This document shows positions 843 to 9,597 of a DNA stretch of 64,000 nt, in pieces (positions within the stretch are counted from its first letter, which is position 1; every line of letters starts with the position of its first letter). The notes below the pieces were generated by a model, which was not told where the DNA came from, made no database searches, and worked only from the letters and a program-made list of their open reading frames with translations. Origin of the DNA: Gracilibacillus sp. YIM 98692 (lineage in GTDB: Bacteria > Bacillota > Bacilli > Bacillales > Amphibacillaceae); assembly GCF_010993965.1 (NCBI RefSeq), contig NZ_WIXM01000014.1, positions 1-64,000 of the forward strand. Direction: 5' to 3'. Made by a program: the position numbers and the translations under genes.

Positions 843-2984
843 TTAACCTAAAATTTCAGATGCAGTAAACGTAATAGGTCCTCTTAAGAAAAGGTCTCCT
901 TCTGCAGTCAGAATATATCTTACATTTTCTTCATTTGATCCAATACTATCAACGTGTAATACTGGAATAGGTTGGTTTTCGTCATCTCTATCTTCTGCAT
1001 CAATTTCAATGGATGGAATATCGTAGATTACGTTAGCTGGGTCTACAGAGTTTTTATAAATTCTTACTCTTAAATCTTCACGTTGAGCTTCATCATTATC
1101 TACGAAAAATTGACCGCTAAGCAATACTTTGTTACCAGCTGCTACATCGTCTAGAGTTACTTCAGCTACTGTAGTTTCCGTTGCTAAAGGAGTGTTTGGT
1201 TGGGTCCCTGTTGGATTTACTGAATTTTGAGTGTCCGATTGAAATTCAACAAGTCGACCACCGCCATTATTGAAAGTAAATCCATCATCTGAAATAGTGA
1301 TGTTTAAAGTTTGGGTTTGCGTAGGGTTTCCAATATTCGTTAATTGCGGGTTACCCACATTTGTAATCGTTTGATCGTTATCCTGCTCCTGCTCTTGTTC
1401 TTGCTCCTGCTCTTGTTCTTGCTCCTGCTCTTGTTCTTGCTCCTGCTCTTGTTCTTGCTCCTGCTCCTGCTCTTGTTCTTGCTCCTGCTCTTGTTCTTGC
1501 TCCTGCTCTTGTTCCTGCTCTTGTTCCTGCTCTTGTTCCTGCTCCTGCTCTTGTTCCTGCTCTTGTTCTTGCTCCTGTTCTTGTTCTTGCTCTTGTTCTT
1601 GTTCTTGCTTCTGTTCTTGCTCTTGCTCCTGCTCTTGTTCCTGCTCTTGTTCCTGCTCCTGTTCTTGCTCCTGTTCTTGTTCTTGCTCCTGCTCTTGTTC
1701 CTGCTCTTGCTCTTGCTCTTGTTCTTGTTCCTGTTCTTGCTCTTGTTCCTGCTCTTGCTCTTGTTCTTGTTCTTGTTCCTGTTCTTGCTCTTGTTCCTGC
1801 TCTTGCTCTTGTTCTTGTTCTTGTTCTTGTTCCTGCTCTTGTTCTTGTTCCTGTTCTTGCTCTTGTTCTTGCTCTTGTTCCTGCTCTTGCTCTTGTTCCT
1901 GCTCCTGCTCTTGTTCCTGCTCCTGCTCCTGTTCTTGCTCCTGCTCTTGTTCCTGTTCTTGTTCTTGCTCCTGCTCCTGCTCTTGTTCCTGCTCTTGTTC
2001 TTGTTCCTGCTCTTGTTCTTGCTCCTGCTCTTGTTCTTGCTCTTGTTCTTGCTCTTGTTCCTGTTCCTGCTCCTGCTCCTGTTCTTGTTCTTGCTCTTGT
2101 TCTTGCTCTTGTTCCTGCTCTTGTTCCTGCTCCTGTTCTTGTTCTTGTTCCTGCTCTTGCTCTTGTTCCTGCTCTTGTTCTTGCTCCTGCTCTTGTTCTT
2201 GCTCCTGCTCTTGTTCTTGTTCTTGTTCCTGCTCTTGCTCTTGTTCCTGCTCTTGTTCTTGTTCTTGTTCCTGCTCTTGCTCTTGTTCCTGCTCTTGTTC
2301 TTGCTCCTGCTCTTGTTCTTGCTCTTGTTCCTGCTCTTGTTCCTGCTCTTGCTCCTGTTCTTGTTCTTGCTCCTGCTCTTGTTCCTGCTCTTGCTCTTGT
2401 TCCTGCTCTTGTTCCTGCTCTTGCTCTTGTTCCTGCTCTTGCTCTTGTTCCTGCTCTTGTTCTTGCTCTTGCTCTTGCTCTTGCCATTGTACTTGAACTT
2501 GTTCTTGCTCTTGTTCCTGTTCTTGTTCCTGTTCTTGTTCCTGTTCTTGCTCCTGCTCTTGTTCTTGCTCTTGCTCCTGCTCTTGTTCTTGCTCTTGCTC
2601 TTGCTCCTGCTCCTGCTCTTGTTCTTGCTCTTGCTCTTGTTCTTGCTCCTGCTCCTGCTCTTGTTTTTGCTCTTGTTCTTGTTCTTGCTCCTGCTCTTGT
2701 TCTTGCTCTTGTTCCTGTTCTTGTTCTTGCTCTTGTTCTTGCTCTTCTTCTTGCTCTTGCTCTTGTTCTTGCTCTTGTTCTTGCTCTTGTTCTTGCTCTT
2801 GTTCTTGCTCTTGCTCTTGCTCTTGCTCTTGTTCTTGCTCTTGTTCTTGCTCTTGTTCTTGTTCTTGTTCTTGCTCTTGTTCTTGCTCTTGTTCTTGTTC
2901 TTGTTCTTGTTCTTGCTCTTGCTCTAGATAGTATCTATATAGATTTCTTTTAGTACGTCTACGTTTACCTTTACGTTTAGGCAT
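843..2984 (-). CDS. Giant poly(Glu-Gln) repeat protein with C-terminal beta-rich domain
   Basis: The 713-residue product has three parts. Residues 1-20 are very basic (MPKRKGKRRRTKRNLYRYYL). Residues 21 to about 534 alternate Glu and Gln almost perfectly, about 257 dipeptides. The interruptions are an EEE near residue 80, two K-for-E changes, and a VQVQWQ patch. The last ~180 residues are a normal-complexity domain starting DNDQTITNVGNPQ, predicted beta-rich with Gly/Asn/Thr, ending FLRGPITFTASEILG. There is no signal peptide. The ATG at 2984 has a good ribosome binding site (aaaaggagtg, about 8 bases upstream). The C-terminal domain has the look of jelly-roll or exosporium-type spore surface domains in Bacillaceae, and the basic tyrosine-containing start resembles coat proteins. 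A spore coat or exosporium role is therefore inferred, not shown. The hexameric DNA repeat must make the length highly variable between strains. Confidence 0.8.
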   Translation of the reverse strand: MPKRKGKRRRTKRNLYRYYLEQEQEQEQEQEQEQEQEQEQEQEQEQEQEQEQEQEQEQEQEQEQEQEQEQEQEQEQEQEEEQEQEQEQEQEQEQEQEQEQEQEQEQKQEQEQEQEQEQEQEQEQEQEQEQEQEQEQEQEQEQEQEQEQEQEQEQEQEQEQEQVQVQWQEQEQEQEQEQEQEQEQEQEQEQEQEQEQEQEQEQEQEQEQEQEQEQEQEQEQEQEQEQEQEQEQEQEQEQEQEQEQEQEQEQEQEQEQEQEQEQEQEQEQEQEQEQEQEQEQEQEQEQEQEQEQEQEQEQEQEQEQEQEQEQEQEQEQEQEQEQEQEQEQEQEQEQEQEQEQEQEQEQEQEQEQEQEQEQEQEQEQEQEQEQEQEQEQEQEQEQEQEQEQEQEQEQEQEQEQEQEQEQEQEQEQEQEQEQEQEQEQEQEQEQEQEQEQEQEQEQEQEQEQEQEQEQEQEQKQEQEQEQEQEQEQEQEQEQEQEQEQEQEQEQEQEQEQEQEQEQEQEQEQEQEQEQEQEQEQEQEQEQEQEQEQEQDNDQTITNVGNPQLTNIGNPTQTQTLNITISDDGFTFNNGGGRLVEFQSDTQNSVNPTGTQPNTPLATETTVAEVTLDDVAAGNKVLLSGQFFVDNDEAQREDLRVRIYKNSVDPANVIYDIPSIEIDAEDRDDENQPIPVLHVDSIGSNEENVRYILTAEGDLFLRGPITFTASEILG
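1383..2924. repeat. Hexanucleotide coding repeat array (Glu-Gln codon pairs)
   Basis: About 1542 bases (257 units) of a degenerate 6-base unit, (GAR)(CAR) on the minus strand, read as Glu-Gln. Both wobble positions vary between A and G. Breaks are at about 2738-2750 (extra Glu), 2664 and 1610 (Lys codons) and 2485-2500 (Val/Trp codons). Because the unit is a multiple of three, insertions and deletions keep the frame. As a side effect the other frames are also open over long distances and give spurious Leu/Phe and Arg/Thr/Ala proteins. Confidence 0.97.
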
Positions 2985-3204
2985 ATAAGATCACTCCTTT
3001 TCAATATTTAGGGGAATGAGTTATAGAAAAATGAAATAATTTATTCCCCTTGAAAGTAATGTATTCATAGCTACATAAATGGAATGGACGAGTAAGTTAG
3101 TATTGATTAGATTTTAGAACCATTTTTATCCTAATGATATTTAAACCTAGATTATTGTCCATATCGATAAAGTTTTTATCAAAAATGATTAAATTAGTTG
3201 TGCA

Positions 3205-3825
3205 AAAGTAAAAATTAAATACGTGGAAGGAAGAAGCGATTTTATTAGAGGAAATTCCGGGTGGTAGAATAAAAATTGGTAAGATGAGAAATTGTATGCG
3301 ACCACTGATGTTACTGACAAGCGAGAAAGTGCTCAAAATGTTGAAAGTTTAACTGCGTATGAACTTGGACGTCACTCTATAGGAAATATAACCCATTTGA
3401 TAACTCATATGTTTATTCCTATGGGCACCAGGGATTAGTCTGGGATGATGATGGACAACTATTTACCTCTGAACATGGCCAATCAGCTCATGATGAAATT
3501 AATCTGATTAAACCAGGAAAAAGATGGACGATTATTGAGGGGGATCAATAAGCGCCTATTATGGTTTCTCCCTGGTATCAAACAGGTGATGATACGTGGG
3601 GTCCTTTAGTATTACAATAAATAACAAAAAAATATATGTAACTAATTTACAAGGAGAGAGCATACGAGTGTTCAATGTAACTGATTATACCGTAGATGTT
3701 ATCTTTGAAAATGCGGGTCGAATGCTAGATTTCAAAAAATCATCTAAGCATTATTCTAAAACTATTGGAAAAAAGGAGATAAATAACACCCCTTTTTTCT
3801 ACCGTTTCAATATGGTTTAATTTAC
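3205..3825 (+). pseudogene. Remnant of glucose/sorbosone dehydrogenase (PQQ-type beta-propeller)
   Basis: Pieces of one protein family can be read in shifting frames. They are WKEEAILLEEIPGG then RIKIG (about 3220-3280), KLYATT..VTDKRESAQNVESLT (about 3290-3350), PFDNSYVYSYGHQGLVWDDDG (about 3390-3455), LFTSEHGQSAHDEINLIKPGK (about 3456-3522), EGDQ-stop, MVSPWYQTGDDTWGP (about 3560-3605) and LQGESIRVFNVTDYTVDVIFENAGR (about 3650-3724). The SEHGQSAHDEIN and YSYGH segments are hallmarks of the GSDH family. The usual HRNPQGL motif has lost two residues, there are several frameshifts and in-frame stops, and the N-terminal half is missing. The gene is dead. An apparent 74-codon frame at 3596-3820 is the C-terminal fragment and not an independent gene. 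Confidence 0.85.
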
Positions 3826-4144: not shown

Positions 4145-4183
4145 CAACATAATTGATAATGGATATCATTATCAATTATGTTG
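4145..4183 (+). promoter_or_regulatory. Fur box 3 in a 39-base palindrome
   Basis: The 19-base Fur box at 4155-4173 (17 of 19 matches) sits inside a perfect inverted repeat with 17-base arms (4145-4161 and 4167-4183) and a 5-base centre. The symmetry extends well past the Fur core, so in RNA it would also form a hairpin in the leader upstream of the first gene. Confidence 0.8.
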
Positions 4184-4229: not shown

Positions 4230-5765
4230 ATGGTAGCCAAAGCAAATATTTTAGAACGTCTAAACACTGATATGGAAACACAAAATTATAGTCGTTACTT
4301 TTTAAATGCAGGTCAAGAAAGTATTACTTTTTATCAACAAGTGATGCAACAAGCACAAACAGCATTAGTTAATCAATTCTCTGCAAATCAAAAACCATAC
4401 AGTGGCTTAAGTTATCAGGAACTTAACTCTCTTTTAAGTAGGACATTCCAGGAAGTTGTTCCAGAAAAACCTGTACATGTGAATCAATTAATGAATGACA
4501 TTGGGGAAGTACTTCTAAAAAATTCGATTGTGGTTACGAATCCCTCATGTATCGCTCATCTTCATTGTCCGCCATTAAACATAGCTTTAGCTGCTGAAGC
4601 TATAATAAGTGGAACAAATCAATCAATGGATTCATGGGATCAAAGTTCAGCTGCGACTATGTTAGAAGAAAAAATGGTGAACTGGTTAACTCAAGCATTT
4701 TTACAGAATGACAAAGCTGATGGTGTTTTTACGAGTGGAGGTACACAATCCAATTTTATGGGATTACTACTCGCACGTGATCGTTATCTTTTTAAGCAAT
4801 TTAAATGGAATACACAAAAACAGGGCCTACCACCTCAAGCTCATAAATTAAGAATCTTTTGCTCTAAGGATGCTCATTTTACCGTAAAACAATCAGCCTT
4901 TTTGCTCGGTTTAGGAGAACAAGCTGTTATCCCGATAGAGACAGATCACAATCACCGAATGTGCTTAAGGGATTTGGATCAACGACTAAGAGAGGCGGAG
5001 GAACAGGATTTGTTACCTTTTGCACTAGTCGCAACTGCTGGGACAACAGATTTTGGCAGTATTGATCCTCTATCTGAAGTAGCAAGATGTGCCAAGAAAC
5101 ATCACATGTGGTTTCACATTGATGCAGCTTATGGTGGCGCACTTATCTTAAGTGACCGTTATCAAGATAAACTAAAAGGTATTAAATTAGGTGACTCTAT
5201 AACCGTTGATTTCCATAAATTATTTTATCAACCAATTAGTTGCGGAGCTTTTCTATTAAAGGATCAATCAAACTTTAAATTTATCAAACAGAATGCAGAT
5301 TATTTAAATCCTGAAGACGATGAGGAGACAGGCATCCCAAATCTAGTTACGAAGTCGATCCAAACAACCAGGCGATTTGATTCATTAAAATTGTTTATGT
5401 CCTTGCAGGCTTTAGGAAGAGAAAAATTTGCTGAAATGATTGACTACACCGTCGACTTAGCGAAGGAGACTGCAATGTTAATCAAAGAAGATAAAGAATT
5501 GGAGTTGGTTAATGTTCCTGAGATGAATGCAGTTGTTTTTCGATATGTCAATCAAACAAACAGTAAAAAAGTTGATAAAATCAATACGTTTATTCGTACA
5601 AGTTTACTAGATAAGGGAAACGCTATATTGGCTAGGACTCGAGTACAAGGACGTGTTTTCTTAAAACTAACACTATTAAACCCTCAGACAACAATGAAAG
5701 ACATAAGGTTAATAATAAATCAGGTAAAAAAAATAGGAGGAGAGTATGAATACAATGGAAATTAA
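4230..5765 (+). CDS. PLP-dependent decarboxylase, L-2,4-diaminobutyrate type (RhbB-like)
   Basis: This 511-residue group II pyridoxal-phosphate decarboxylase has the family blocks: FTSGGTQSN near residue 168, the HIDAAYGG aspartate motif near 299, and the lysine of SITVDFHKLFYQ (Lys330) that should bind PLP. By family it removes CO2 from L-2,4-diaminobutyrate to give 1,3-diaminopropane, or from lysine to give cadaverine. Position decides little by itself, but the five-gene order is that of rhbBCDEF, which favours diaminobutyrate and a schizokinen-like product. The ribosome binding site is aggaggtg upstream of the ATG. The gene overlaps the next by 20 bases, so translation is coupled. It is the first gene after three Fur boxes. 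No diaminobutyrate aminotransferase (RhbA) accompanies it. Confidence 0.88.
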   Translation: MVAKANILERLNTDMETQNYSRYFLNAGQESITFYQQVMQQAQTALVNQFSANQKPYSGLSYQELNSLLSRTFQEVVPEKPVHVNQLMNDIGEVLLKNSIVVTNPSCIAHLHCPPLNIALAAEAIISGTNQSMDSWDQSSAATMLEEKMVNWLTQAFLQNDKADGVFTSGGTQSNFMGLLLARDRYLFKQFKWNTQKQGLPPQAHKLRIFCSKDAHFTVKQSAFLLGLGEQAVIPIETDHNHRMCLRDLDQRLREAEEQDLLPFALVATAGTTDFGSIDPLSEVARCAKKHHMWFHIDAAYGGALILSDRYQDKLKGIKLGDSITVDFHKLFYQPISCGAFLLKDQSNFKFIKQNADYLNPEDDEETGIPNLVTKSIQTTRRFDSLKLFMSLQALGREKFAEMIDYTVDLAKETAMLIKEDKELELVNVPEMNAVVFRYVNQTNSKKVDKINTFIRTSLLDKGNAILARTRVQGRVFLKLTLLNPQTTMKDIRLIINQVKKIGGEYEYNGN

Positions 5766-7590
5766 TTTCAAACGTATTGCCGAGCAAGCGACAATGCAAA
5801 GCTTTTTAAATTGTTATTTGAGAGAGACTCAGAATTTTAAGCTATACGATCAGATACCAGATGAATTATTCACTAAAATCACGTTACATAAAAAAGACCA
5901 AGCCCTTATTCATTGTAAATTAACTCATCTTGAAATGAACTTATATGTCCCATTGATTTATTGGTCAGCTACTGGGCGACACTTATTTTCGTTTCCAATT
6001 TATTATTGTAACTTCGGTGAAAATCAAAAAATATTTGAAGTAGATTACCTGTCATTAGTTCATATGATTATGAAAGAACTAAGCATGGAGAATGGACAGG
6101 ATGGAACGGACAATCAAGAGGAATTAATGTTACGTGTCATGCTAAGCTGTCAAAACGTAGAAACATATATTCGAGAAAGATATCCAGATACCAAGTATTT
6201 ATACAAGATGAATATGGATTTTATTGATACCGAACAGTCATTATTATTTGGGCATTTAATGCATCCAACTCCTAAAAGTCGACAAGGGATCGAGGAATCG
6301 GATGCACCACTTTATTCACCAGAATTAAAAGGGGAATTTTCATTACATTATTTTCGCGTCCACTCTTCAATCGTGAATCGGGGGACAGCGTTAGGATATA
6401 CAGCATCTGAAATTGTTAGAAACCAAGTGATAGAGGATCCATCTATATCAGATGAATTGAAGCAGATAGCTAGTCAAAGAGATGAAAATTATGAATTGAT
6501 TCCCATTCATCCATGGCAAGCAAAATTTTTAATGAACAAGCCTAAGGTGAAAGAGCTGATGGATAAGGGTTTAATCGTGAGTCTTGGGCAGCATGGTCGT
6601 TGTTATTATCCTACTTCTTCTTTACGGACCGTGTATCATCCAAAAACAAATTATATGATGAAGTTTTCCTTAAATGTGAAAATTACAAACTCCGTACGTG
6701 CGAATAAATATATGGAATTAGAACGTGGAGTAGAAGTTAAGAAGCTAATGGAAGGACAGATTGGACAGCATCTTAAGGAAGTACATCCAAACTTTCAAGT
6801 AATGGCAGATCCAGCTTTTATGACCGTTAACATTGATGGCGAAGAAGAGTCAGGTTTTGAGGTTATTTTTAGAGAGAACCCGTTTAAGGAAGACAACGCA
6901 TTAAATGCTACGTCTCTTGCTGCGATTTGTCAGGACACAGTAGAAGGCCATTCCTCTCGTTTAGCAGAGATCATTAAAAAGTTAGCCGAGAAAGAAGGAC
7001 GTACTACTGAAGAAGTAAGTTTGGATTGGTTTAGAAAATATCTTGACGTTTCGTTGAAGCCAATTATGTGGCTTTTCCTAAACTATGGGATTGCGGTTGA
7101 GGCACATCAACAAAACAGTGTCATCCAATTAAAAAATGGTTATCCCGATCAATTCTACTATCGCGATAATCAAGGCTACTACTATTGTGAATCTCACCAT
7201 GAACGACTTAATGAAATCTTACCTGGTATAAGTGAAAAAAGTAACACGATTTGTTCAGATAAGGTTGCAGATGAACGTTTACGCTATTATTTCTTCTTAA
7301 ATCATTTATTTGGATTGATTAATACGTTTGGAACAGGCGGGCTAATTGATGAAAAGAAGCTGTTAGCGGAAGTAAGAATCGTACTTGAGTCGATTAAAGT
7401 TCCAAAGTATAGTTCATCAGAATTAATTCCAAGTTTATTGTTACACCGAAAGCTCCCGTGCAAAGCTAACTTACTTACACGTTTTTATGATATGGATGAA
7501 CTAACAGGTTCACTCGAAACTCAGTCTGTCTATGTTGAAATTGATAATCCTTTGTATCAAAAGGAGTTGGTTACGGATGCAGCAAAATAG
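5746..7590 (+). CDS. IucA/IucC-family siderophore synthetase 1 (RhbC-like)
   Basis: The 614-residue NRPS-independent siderophore synthetase activates a carboxylate (citrate) with ATP and joins it to an amine or hydroxylamine. Visible motifs are GHLMHPTPKSRQG (about residues 164-176), which binds ATP phosphate, IPIHPWQ (about 249), and the C-terminal FhuF-like region with the EAHQQNS segment typical of the family. The start is inside the decarboxylase gene, with aggagga just upstream. The next gene starts 14 bases before its end. In rhizobactin 1021 and schizokinen pathways two such enzymes work in turn, each adding one arm to citrate, and this is one of the pair. Confidence 0.9.
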   Translation: MNTMEINFKRIAEQATMQSFLNCYLRETQNFKLYDQIPDELFTKITLHKKDQALIHCKLTHLEMNLYVPLIYWSATGRHLFSFPIYYCNFGENQKIFEVDYLSLVHMIMKELSMENGQDGTDNQEELMLRVMLSCQNVETYIRERYPDTKYLYKMNMDFIDTEQSLLFGHLMHPTPKSRQGIEESDAPLYSPELKGEFSLHYFRVHSSIVNRGTALGYTASEIVRNQVIEDPSISDELKQIASQRDENYELIPIHPWQAKFLMNKPKVKELMDKGLIVSLGQHGRCYYPTSSLRTVYHPKTNYMMKFSLNVKITNSVRANKYMELERGVEVKKLMEGQIGQHLKEVHPNFQVMADPAFMTVNIDGEEESGFEVIFRENPFKEDNALNATSLAAICQDTVEGHSSRLAEIIKKLAEKEGRTTEEVSLDWFRKYLDVSLKPIMWLFLNYGIAVEAHQQNSVIQLKNGYPDQFYYRDNQGYYYCESHHERLNEILPGISEKSNTICSDKVADERLRYYFFLNHLFGLINTFGTGGLIDEKKLLAEVRIVLESIKVPKYSSSELIPSLLLHRKLPCKANLLTRFYDMDELTGSLETQSVYVEIDNPLYQKELVTDAAK

Positions 7591-8155
7591 TGAATATGAA
7601 TTTACCTTCTATGATCGTGAAATAGATTCTGAGATTGTATTTCGACGAGTAACGCTGGAGAAAGATTTGGATCGACTGCATCAATGGCACCACCAACCAC
7701 ATGTAATACCATTTTGGAACCAAAATTTTTCTGAAACAGCATATAAAGATCATTTGAAAAAGCTGCTAGCAGATCAACACCAGTCGTTATATATTGGTTA
7801 TTTGAACAATGTACCAATGAGTTATTGGGAAGCTTATTGGGCAAAAGATGATCTGATTGCAAATTACTATGATGCAGAAAAAGAGGATCAAGGTATTCAT
7901 TTATTGTTTGGACCGGAAGAATATTTGGGTAAAGGGTTAGCGCTCCCGCTATTAAGAGCAATGATTGCCTTTCAGTTTAAACATAAAAAAACCGAGAAGG
8001 TAGTAGCAGAGCCTGATGTACGCAACAAAAAAATGATCCATATTTTTGAAAAATGTGGATTTGAGCCGGAAAAAGAAATTGAATTACCTGATAAACGAGG
8101 GCTGCTTATGTTTTGTCATCGTGTAACGTTTAACACGGTGAATAATTGTTCGTAA
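7577..8155 (+). CDS. Siderophore N-acetyltransferase, GNAT/IucB family (RhbD-like)
   Basis: A 192-residue GNAT protein. The ATG at 7577 is chosen because AAGGAG stands at 7561-7566, while a longer in-frame start at 7532 lacks such a site and would add residues out of family register. The HQWHHQPHV segment (about residue 35) and the acetyl-CoA loop around FGPEEYLGKGLALPLL (about 114-129) are typical of IucB/RhbD acylases. It should acetylate the hydroxylamine made by the monooxygenase downstream to give the hydroxamate. It overlaps the synthetase gene by 14 bases. Confidence 0.88.
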   Translation: MQQNSEYEFTFYDREIDSEIVFRRVTLEKDLDRLHQWHHQPHVIPFWNQNFSETAYKDHLKKLLADQHQSLYIGYLNNVPMSYWEAYWAKDDLIANYYDAEKEDQGIHLLFGPEEYLGKGLALPLLRAMIAFQFKHKKTEKVVAEPDVRNKKMIHIFEKCGFEPEKEIELPDKRGLLMFCHRVTFNTVNNCS

Positions 8156-8235
8156 TACCCCCACTTAAAAATTTTGCGTAAATCAAAGGAGCAAGTGGGA
8201 TAAGTTGAAGTTTCACTTTAAAAGGAGGTTTAAGG

Positions 8236-9597
8236 ATGCGTTCACCCCATATGTATCCAAATAAAATCGATATGTATGATGTTATAGGAGTAGGAATTGG
8301 TCCTTTTAATTTGGGGCTTGCTGCTTTAACAGAAGAAATAGAAGATTTAAGCACCATTTTCTTTGATCAGAAGCCTTATTTTGAATGGCATGGAGGGCTA
8401 TTAATTGAAGATACGACCTTACAAGTCCCCTTTTTAGCCGATATCGTAACAATGGCTGATCCTACAAGTCGGTATAGCTACCTTAATTATTTACAGGAAC
8501 ATGAACGGTTATATAAATTTTATTTCCTTGAAAGGTTCCATATTCCACGACGTGAATATAATCACTATTGCCAATGGGTTTCTAAGCAATTAGCGAATTG
8601 CAGCTTTGGTAAGAGGATTACAAATATTGAGTGGCAAGTAGATCGAGATAAACTAGCAGGGTATGAAGATAAGGGCTATTTTAAAGTCGAAGCTACTGAT
8701 ACTCAATCAGGAGATATTCAGTACTATTATTCTCGTCATCTCGTATTTGGGGTTGGCAGTGTTCCGTACTTACCAGACTGCTTTTCTGCACAGTCTTCAG
8801 ACGATGTTTTTCATTCTGCAGAGTTCTTAGATAAAAGAGAGCGCTTGCGCCACTCGGAATCGATTACGGTTATCGGTTCGGGTCAAAGTGCTGCAGAAGT
8901 TTTTCTTGAACTTTTAAAGGAACAACGGACCTATCACTATCGACTTGATTGGTTTACACGATCAAAAGGATTTTTTCCAATGGAATATTCAAAGCTTGGT
9001 TTAGAGCATTTTTCGCCAGACCATACAAATTATTTCTATCGTTTATCACAGGATCAAAAAGATCAGTTAATTCCAAAGCAGGATTTATTATACAAAGGAA
9101 TCAGTGAAACAACCATATCAGATATTTACGATGTACTTTATGAACATTCTGTTGGAGGTGAGATTCCTCCAGTTCGTTTACAAGCTAAAACGGAAGTAGC
9201 GGATGTTAAAGAAATAAAGACAGAGGAAGGAAGTAACTATCAATTAATTTGTAACCAGTGGGAACAGGATCAACCGTTCACGCATGAAAGTGAAGTAGTT
9301 ATTGCAGCAACTGGTTATCAACATCCTATTCCTGGCTTCTTGTCTAACCTATCTTCCATTATTAAGTGGGATGATAACGGAAGGTATAAAGTAAGTAAGA
9401 ACTATGAGCTGCAATTAACGAAAGAGATTCCTAACAAAATTTTTATCCAGAATGGGGAAATGCACACACATGGCGTAGGTGCTCCAGATTTAGGATTAGG
9501 ATGCTATCGTAACTCGGTCATTATTAATGAACTGATGAATCAAGAAATCTATCCGGTTCATAAGAGAAATGTCTTTCAACAGTTTGGAGTTGAGTAA
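8236..9597 (+). CDS. Amine N-monooxygenase, IucD/RhbE family
   Basis: This 453-residue flavoprotein belongs to the lysine N6-hydroxylase/ornithine N5-oxygenase family. The FAD motif is GVGIGPFNLGLAAL (about residues 17-30), the NADPH motif is VIGSGQSAAEVFLELL (about 212-227), and ATGYQHPIP near residue 357 is the family's C-terminal ATGY signature. It should hydroxylate the terminal amine of diaminopropane (or cadaverine/lysine) using NADPH and O2. The ribosome binding site is aaaaggaggt. An 80-base gap separates it from the acetyltransferase, with no terminator, so it stays in the operon. Confidence 0.9.
   Translation: MRSPHMYPNKIDMYDVIGVGIGPFNLGLAALTEEIEDLSTIFFDQKPYFEWHGGLLIEDTTLQVPFLADIVTMADPTSRYSYLNYLQEHERLYKFYFLERFHIPRREYNHYCQWVSKQLANCSFGKRITNIEWQVDRDKLAGYEDKGYFKVEATDTQSGDIQYYYSRHLVFGVGSVPYLPDCFSAQSSDDVFHSAEFLDKRERLRHSESITVIGSGQSAAEVFLELLKEQRTYHYRLDWFTRSKGFFPMEYSKLGLEHFSPDHTNYFYRLSQDQKDQLIPKQDLLYKGISETTISDIYDVLYEHSVGGEIPPVRLQAKTEVADVKEIKTEEGSNYQLICNQWEQDQPFTHESEVVIAATGYQHPIPGFLSNLSSIIKWDDNGRYKVSKNYELQLTKEIPNKIFIQNGEMHTHGVGAPDLGLGCYRNSVIINELMNQEIYPVHKRNVFQQFGVE

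Follow-up and report, generated by a model that had tools for sequence, protein, structure and literature searches.

The stalk-and-head proteins of the spore surface that are described in passages of PMC10470788, PMC11952670 and PMC4674009 have collagen-like stalks. The collagen stalk of F-BclA comprises 701 residues and reaches 196 nm according to one such passage (PMC11952670), ~190 nm is predicted for BclA1 of B. megaterium in another (PMC4674009), and BxpB and the BclA head are described as jelly-roll-type trimers (PMC10470788). Here, a gene encoding a protein with a very long Glu-Gln tract was analyzed in a stretch of 64,000 nucleotides from Gracilibacillus sp. YIM 98692 (contig NZ_WIXM01000014.1; this whole stretch is hereafter the window). 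The tract was found to be real and unusual, and the reading that fits its protein best is a stalk-and-head protein of the spore in extreme form, with a stalk of alternating glutamine. Judged by titles and abstract openings, no work about such an alternating-Gln or Glu-Gln stalk was found in literature searches.

The gene and its Glu-Gln tract

The reading frame starts with an ATG codon and has a good ribosome-binding site upstream (Table 1). Because it begins 842 bases from the start of its contig, in a draft genome of 69 contigs with a completeness of 98.8%, one flank of the gene was unseen. The very basic head of 20 residues described in the earlier note was confirmed. The 180-residue tail described there as beta-rich is indeed so, but really consists of a low-confidence linker of ~40 residues and a core of 139 residues. 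The fold of the leader was nothing special (z -1.19; 26 of 200 shuffles were equally good).

Table 1. Coordinates of the tract gene and its parts, as positions in the window
Feature	Position	Strand	Remarks
Whole gene, 713 aa	843..2984	-	88 kDa, net charge -262, zero cysteine
Ribosome-binding site AAGGAGTGA	2991..2999	-	judged by eye
Basic head, residues 1-20	2925..2984	-	net charge +10, RYYL at its end
(Glu-Gln)257 tract (candidate stalk), residues 21-534	1383..2924	-	six deviations
Linker, residues 535-574	1263..1382	-	contains TITNVGNP
Predicted jelly-roll core, residues 575-713 (139 aa)	846..1262	-	AlphaFold and Foldseek
Leader inverted repeat AGGGGAAT...ATTCCCCT	3010..3050	-	

The near-purity of the tract, first remarked on from the letters alone, held on recounting: among its 257 pairs, 508 of the 514 residues were as expected, and the net charge was -251. 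Glutamine occupied 256 of the 257 Q slots, the one deviation being E80, and the E slots deviated at K107, V163, V165, W167 and K459. Codon usage was mixed in both slots, with 134 GAG and 118 GAA codons in the E slots and 178 CAA and 78 CAG codons in the Q slots. Codon positions 1 and 2 departed from GA or CA at 7 of 1,028 sites, whereas the minority base was found at 198 of the 514 wobble positions, a contrast that is a rough measure, yet one far from neutrality, provided that the seed repeat had not been mixed from the outset. The proposal of the earlier note that the protein is under selection draws support from this contrast and from the conservation of glutamine in relatives.

Recurrent expansion of a repeat, also proposed earlier, received a mixed answer. 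Tandem Repeats Finder (TRF) reported units of 18 and 42 nt in the tract, and wobble bases matched at a lag of six codons (18 nt) in a proportion of 0.606 versus 0.539 in shuffles, with 1 of 1,000 shuffles as high and the strongest matching in the last third, whereas matching at a lag of two codons was below all 1,000 shuffles; six lags were tried in four stretches and these shuffle counts are uncorrected for that number. By contrast, when every even lag up to 198 was considered, the highest proportion, again 0.606, was unexceptional against the maxima of shuffles (mean 0.596, highest 0.641). The longest repeated wobble run comprised 23 codons, a length reached by 3 of 200 shuffles. Taken together, the 18-nt beat and the TRF unit, set against the unexceptional maximum over all lags, indicate that the tract probably grew by repeats, but long ago, and has drifted since then. 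Mis-assembly is unlikely because the longest exact DNA repeat, of 71 nt, lies within the span of ordinary reads.

A tail family and its alternating-glutamine branch

Neither the whole protein nor the tail matched any Pfam or NCBIfam family at E<=1. NCBIfam presumably includes a model of the exosporium leader; zero NCBIfam families were found in the whole protein, and a motif so short could escape such a scan. Comparison of the tail with PDB sequences, those of ExsFA and BxpB included, gave nothing convincing. A single-sequence search with the core of the window protein recovered relatives from 10 further genomes, with identities of 30-69%. Counting the genome of the window each time, the tail was present in 11 of 150 genomes searched, in 9 of 159 genomes of the family and in 26 of 397 genomes of the order, with relatives at sixteen named loci; the profile E-value of 8.3e-56 for the window protein takes in its own row. 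The tail was found once in its own genome, on two plasmids of Priestia megaterium and on one plasmid named Brevibacterium. It was absent from all 16 genomes of the same genus, two of which are less than 90% complete, and its sister in the tree was L002, from another family (support 97/84), which suggests that the gene is accessory and has probably moved between lineages or been lost often.

Some observations were made in passing. The Brevibacterium plasmid (sp. JNUCC-42, L091), whose label may be wrong, carries a Spo0E-family gene in addition to the tail. A partial tail match in another genome (L042, G173) contains two in-frame stops and is a decayed copy. A viral origin of the tail was ruled against, since of 175 viral-contig stretches that matched a pattern, 0 encode a tail relative.

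The 180 residues of the tail were modelled with AlphaFold from an alignment of 16 rows. The model showed eight strands and a mean pLDDT of 76.7, with 89 of 180 residues at pLDDT >=90 and the first 39 residues disordered. Its PDB matches in Foldseek were jelly rolls, with birnavirus capsids on top, a ranking that weighs against a spore role, and included the TNF-like N-domain of BC2L-C (TMt 0.53-0.64) and the heads of C1q and TRAIL. In the viral library, ranks one and three were cedratvirus collagen-repeat proteins, among many phage proteins, the part aligned being unspecified. The tail core is thus predicted to have a TNF/C1q-like jelly-roll fold and is probably trimeric.

An alternating-glutamine tract was found in 3 of 41 distinct tail proteins: that of the window, L002, and L003, which is the same protein as L016 from Paraliobacillus ryukyuensis (G072). 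The three share the tail, a linker motif TI[TS]N[VL]GNP following the tract (TISNLGNP in L002, TISNVGNP in L003) and a glutamine at every second residue, which fills 38 of 38 Q slots in the 76-residue tract of L002 and 20 of 20 in the 40-residue tract of L003, both in the same place as in the window protein. They differ in length, the window tract being 7 to 13 times longer, and in the other slot, here called X, which in the relatives is mixed: Leu 13, Ala 8, Lys 5, Val 4, Glu 3, Ile 2, Gln 1, Arg 1 and Asn 1 in L002, which also has a Cys-rich linker, and Leu 10, Lys 2, Asn 2, Asp 2, Ala 2, Glu 1 and Val 1 in L003. Since their X codons are varied, the tracts of L002 and L003 are not plain DNA repeats. 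The remaining 38 distinct proteins lacked an alternating-Gln tract; their heads measured between 10 and 139 residues and were in many cases rich in Lys, Asp, His, Tyr or Cys. The three plasmid proteins, examined in addition to the 41, lacked such a tract as well.

A tree was built from 36 of these tail proteins, after four with three domains and a short fragment had been dropped from the 41. In it, the three proteins formed one side of one branch, which points to a single origin, with a support of 95/78, falling just under the star of the tree tool, and 96% of 200 bootstraps. Because these proteins keep the Gln slots, with X mixed in the two relatives, and share one branch, the conserved and inherited feature is a glutamine at every second residue, (XQ)n, the near-constant Glu at X being a choice of the lineage of the window. 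The earlier note had missed this, taking Glu-Gln itself as the element.

Queried with the L002 tract at E<=1e-4, 4 of 397 genomes of the order responded, namely that of L002, G112, G224 and G473; this count is a lower bound because the search missed the tract of the window itself. The matches in G112 and G224, which also encode three-domain tail proteins, were small stand-alone XQ proteins, and the one in G473 had a stop inside and lay over an Asp-Pro tract. The genome of L002 held a second, weak XQ place. A search that started from one of the stand-alone XQ proteins picked up 3 of 397 genomes (G112, G224 and, with a stop, G405). At L080:1483-1990, two adjoining proteins of 78 and 76 residues consist mainly of a QAQLQ alternation and have a common KNGxSSIE end. 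A further dipeptide stalk is suggested at L082:1032-1943, where a long Asp-Pro dipeptide tract precedes a sequence that, by eye, resembles a wall anchor of the LPATA type.

These data bear on the likeliest alternative, in which a slippage unit of ~18 nt grew mostly neutrally in a tolerant linker, with no function beyond disorder. The TRF unit and the matching at lag 6 are in its favor, as is the finding that the genome of the window is the only one of 159 in the family with an EQ tract at E<=1e-6. We nevertheless consider mostly neutral growth rather unlikely, in view of the scarcity of departures at codon positions 1 and 2 relative to wobble variation, the unexceptional maximum over all lags, and relatives in which no Q slot has lost its Gln although the codons in between are varied and non-repetitive. 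This alternative and those discussed below overlap with one another and with the main reading, and the likelihoods given to them are not meant to total one.

Coat genes, promoters and neighbors

Three neighbors of tail genes scored as Spore-coat_CotZ. By tblastn with one of them, CotZ (PF10612) was found to adjoin the tail gene in six of the nine genomes of the family that carry the tail (Ornithinibacillus massiliensis, O. halophilus, Lentibacillus saliphilus, two Paucisalibacillus and G027), and in all six both genes were divergent, which lends support to a spore-surface role. In addition, a BMQ_0737 spore-coat gene lies ~1 kb from a weak tail relative (L013). CotZ was not beside the copy of the window, L016 or the broken copy L042 and, outside the family, was not found within the short flanks of tail genes that were covered. 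No coat family was detected among 10 ORFs around L016, the sole coat hint there being a Hydrolase_2 gene 2.7 kb off. The spore-surface idea of the earlier note therefore stands in part: the tail family is tied to CotZ and BMQ_0737 and is predicted to fold as a jelly roll, like proteins of the exosporium, but no coat gene was found on the visible flank of its own locus, and a role of the window protein on the spore surface is supported by kinship.

By gene content, the organism makes coated spores, since its genome showed two CotZ and six DUF4183 matches. Among the latter (L092 and L096, on contigs C2 and C46), a 122-aa DUF4183 protein is encoded beside a 458-aa protein that has three DUF4183 stretches and matches BMQ_0737 in part (66.6 bits, where the cut-off is 71). 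By analogy with the fibre-and-anchor pairs described in a passage on F-ENA (PMC11952670), these two are likely an F-ENA-type fibre and its anchor. At L083:1121-1948, the genome that holds the closest relative encodes a CotG/ExsB-like Lys/Ser/Cys repeat protein (NF047410, 24.7 bits, under the cut-off of 28).

A sigma-K promoter, suggested earlier as a check, was not found: the 416 nt upstream contained no consensus for sigma-K or sigma-E. A sigma-70-like site (10/12) was located at 3161..3134 on the strand of the tract gene, in a region with 19 such sites versus 8.6 expected, and would be in keeping with expression during growth. A broken-looking coding remnant (3245-3620) separates the tract gene from a likely siderophore operon. 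The operon (4230-9597), as read by eye, encodes a PLP decarboxylase, IucA/IucC-like proteins, a GNAT protein and a lysine hydroxylase-like protein, and has by it a palindrome (4145-4183) that we take to resemble a Fur box.

It is conceivable, from these surroundings, that the protein resides in the cytoplasm or on the surface of growing cells, with no tie to the spore; the sigma-70-like site, the adjoining apparent siderophore operon and the missing CotZ would agree with this. A location in growing cells is distinctly improbable, however, given the ties of the family to CotZ and BMQ_0737 and a 713-aa sequence in which neither a signal peptide nor a wall anchor was seen by eye.

Transglutaminase cross-linking of the tract was another idea of the earlier note; the tract would then be a glutamine donor joined into the coat, in the manner of involucrin in skin. 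The filling of nearly every Q slot here, and of all of them in the relatives, is what such a donor might display. The idea is weakened to the point of being highly doubtful because TGL (PF20085), the one fold searched, had 0 matches in this nearly complete genome, the Bacillus subtilis control being positive. Storage of calcium or other cations by the tract, as an ionic sponge on the spore or in the mother cell, would suit its charge and recalls the calcium-binding loops of BxpB described in a passage of PMC10470788, but is very improbable, because Leu, Ala, Val or Lys fill most X slots of the relatives and negative charge is thus not the feature that was kept.

A candidate stalk compared with known spore-surface systems

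With modest confidence, we regard the window protein as probably a spore-surface protein laid out as head, stalk and jelly roll, similar to BclA but with a polyanionic, non-collagen stalk. The basic head, to judge from its charge, may anchor the protein on the outer protein layer of the spore. The 514-residue Glu-Gln chain would form a stretched or swollen polyanionic stalk and would carry the TNF/C1q-like domain, probably as a trimer, outward. With textbook rises per residue of 0.15 to 0.34 nm, the tract would span 77 to 175 nm depending on its shape, which is in the range of the collagen stalks of spore proteins. Many such stalks together could form a hydrated, negatively charged brush on the spore.

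As to the shape of the stalk, a strict period of two gives sides to an extended chain, not to a helix, and would suit a ladder of glutamines. A single-sequence model of L016 counts against an extended stalk, as residues 2-54 were helical, with a pLDDT of ~78-94 up to residue 50, the rest being poor (mean 49.0). A bolder proposal, which we hold to be unlikely, is that (XQ)n represents a new kind of stalk in which Gln amides line up as a continuous ladder along one side of an extended chain, zipping the chains of the trimer, while the other face is set by the lineage (Leu, Ala, Lys or, here, nearly always Glu), its chemistry being tunable without touching the zipper. If true, the Gln ladder would give spores a non-collagen nap whose chemistry each lineage can tune.

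Replacement of collagen by this tract was considered and rejected. No Collagen match was found in the genome of the window, but the same was observed in 61 of 159 genomes of the family, and 4 of the 9 tail-bearing ones did contain a match (G027, G058, the XQ-bearing G072 and G191). As the tail is not associated with missing collagen, there is no pattern of replacement.

Among known systems, ExsFA and BxpB appeared in the Foldseek matches of the predicted tail (7r1m, E 7.9e-4, and 8d02, E 1.1e-3), but with TM-scores of just 0.33-0.39, an rmsd of 9-11 and no match in sequence; moreover, BxpB lacks a long stalk, unlike the window protein, because it comprises 167 residues as described in PMC10470788. 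F-ENA resembles the proposed protein in forming spore-surface fibres of small beta subunits, and DUF4183 genes are carried by the genome of the window, whereas the tail had no DUF4183 match at E<=1. BclA and F-BclA, as far as passages of PMC10470788 and PMC11952670 describe them, share with the window protein an N-terminal head, a long repeat stalk and a C-terminal jelly roll, the last being predicted here. They differ in having Gly-X-Y stalks in place of (EQ)n, and the BclA_C domain of BclA (PF18573) neither matched the tail of the window protein, which is without any Pfam or NCBIfam match, nor appeared when 16 members were scanned, where the matches were seven families at noise level. The tail also points to a probable domain family of the spore surface, one that went unrecognized here by Pfam and NCBIfam. 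An alternating-Gln stalk would be a second solution beside the collagen-like ones, following a simple dipeptide rule, which the lineage of the window would have taken to a natural, near-pure Glu-Gln polymer.
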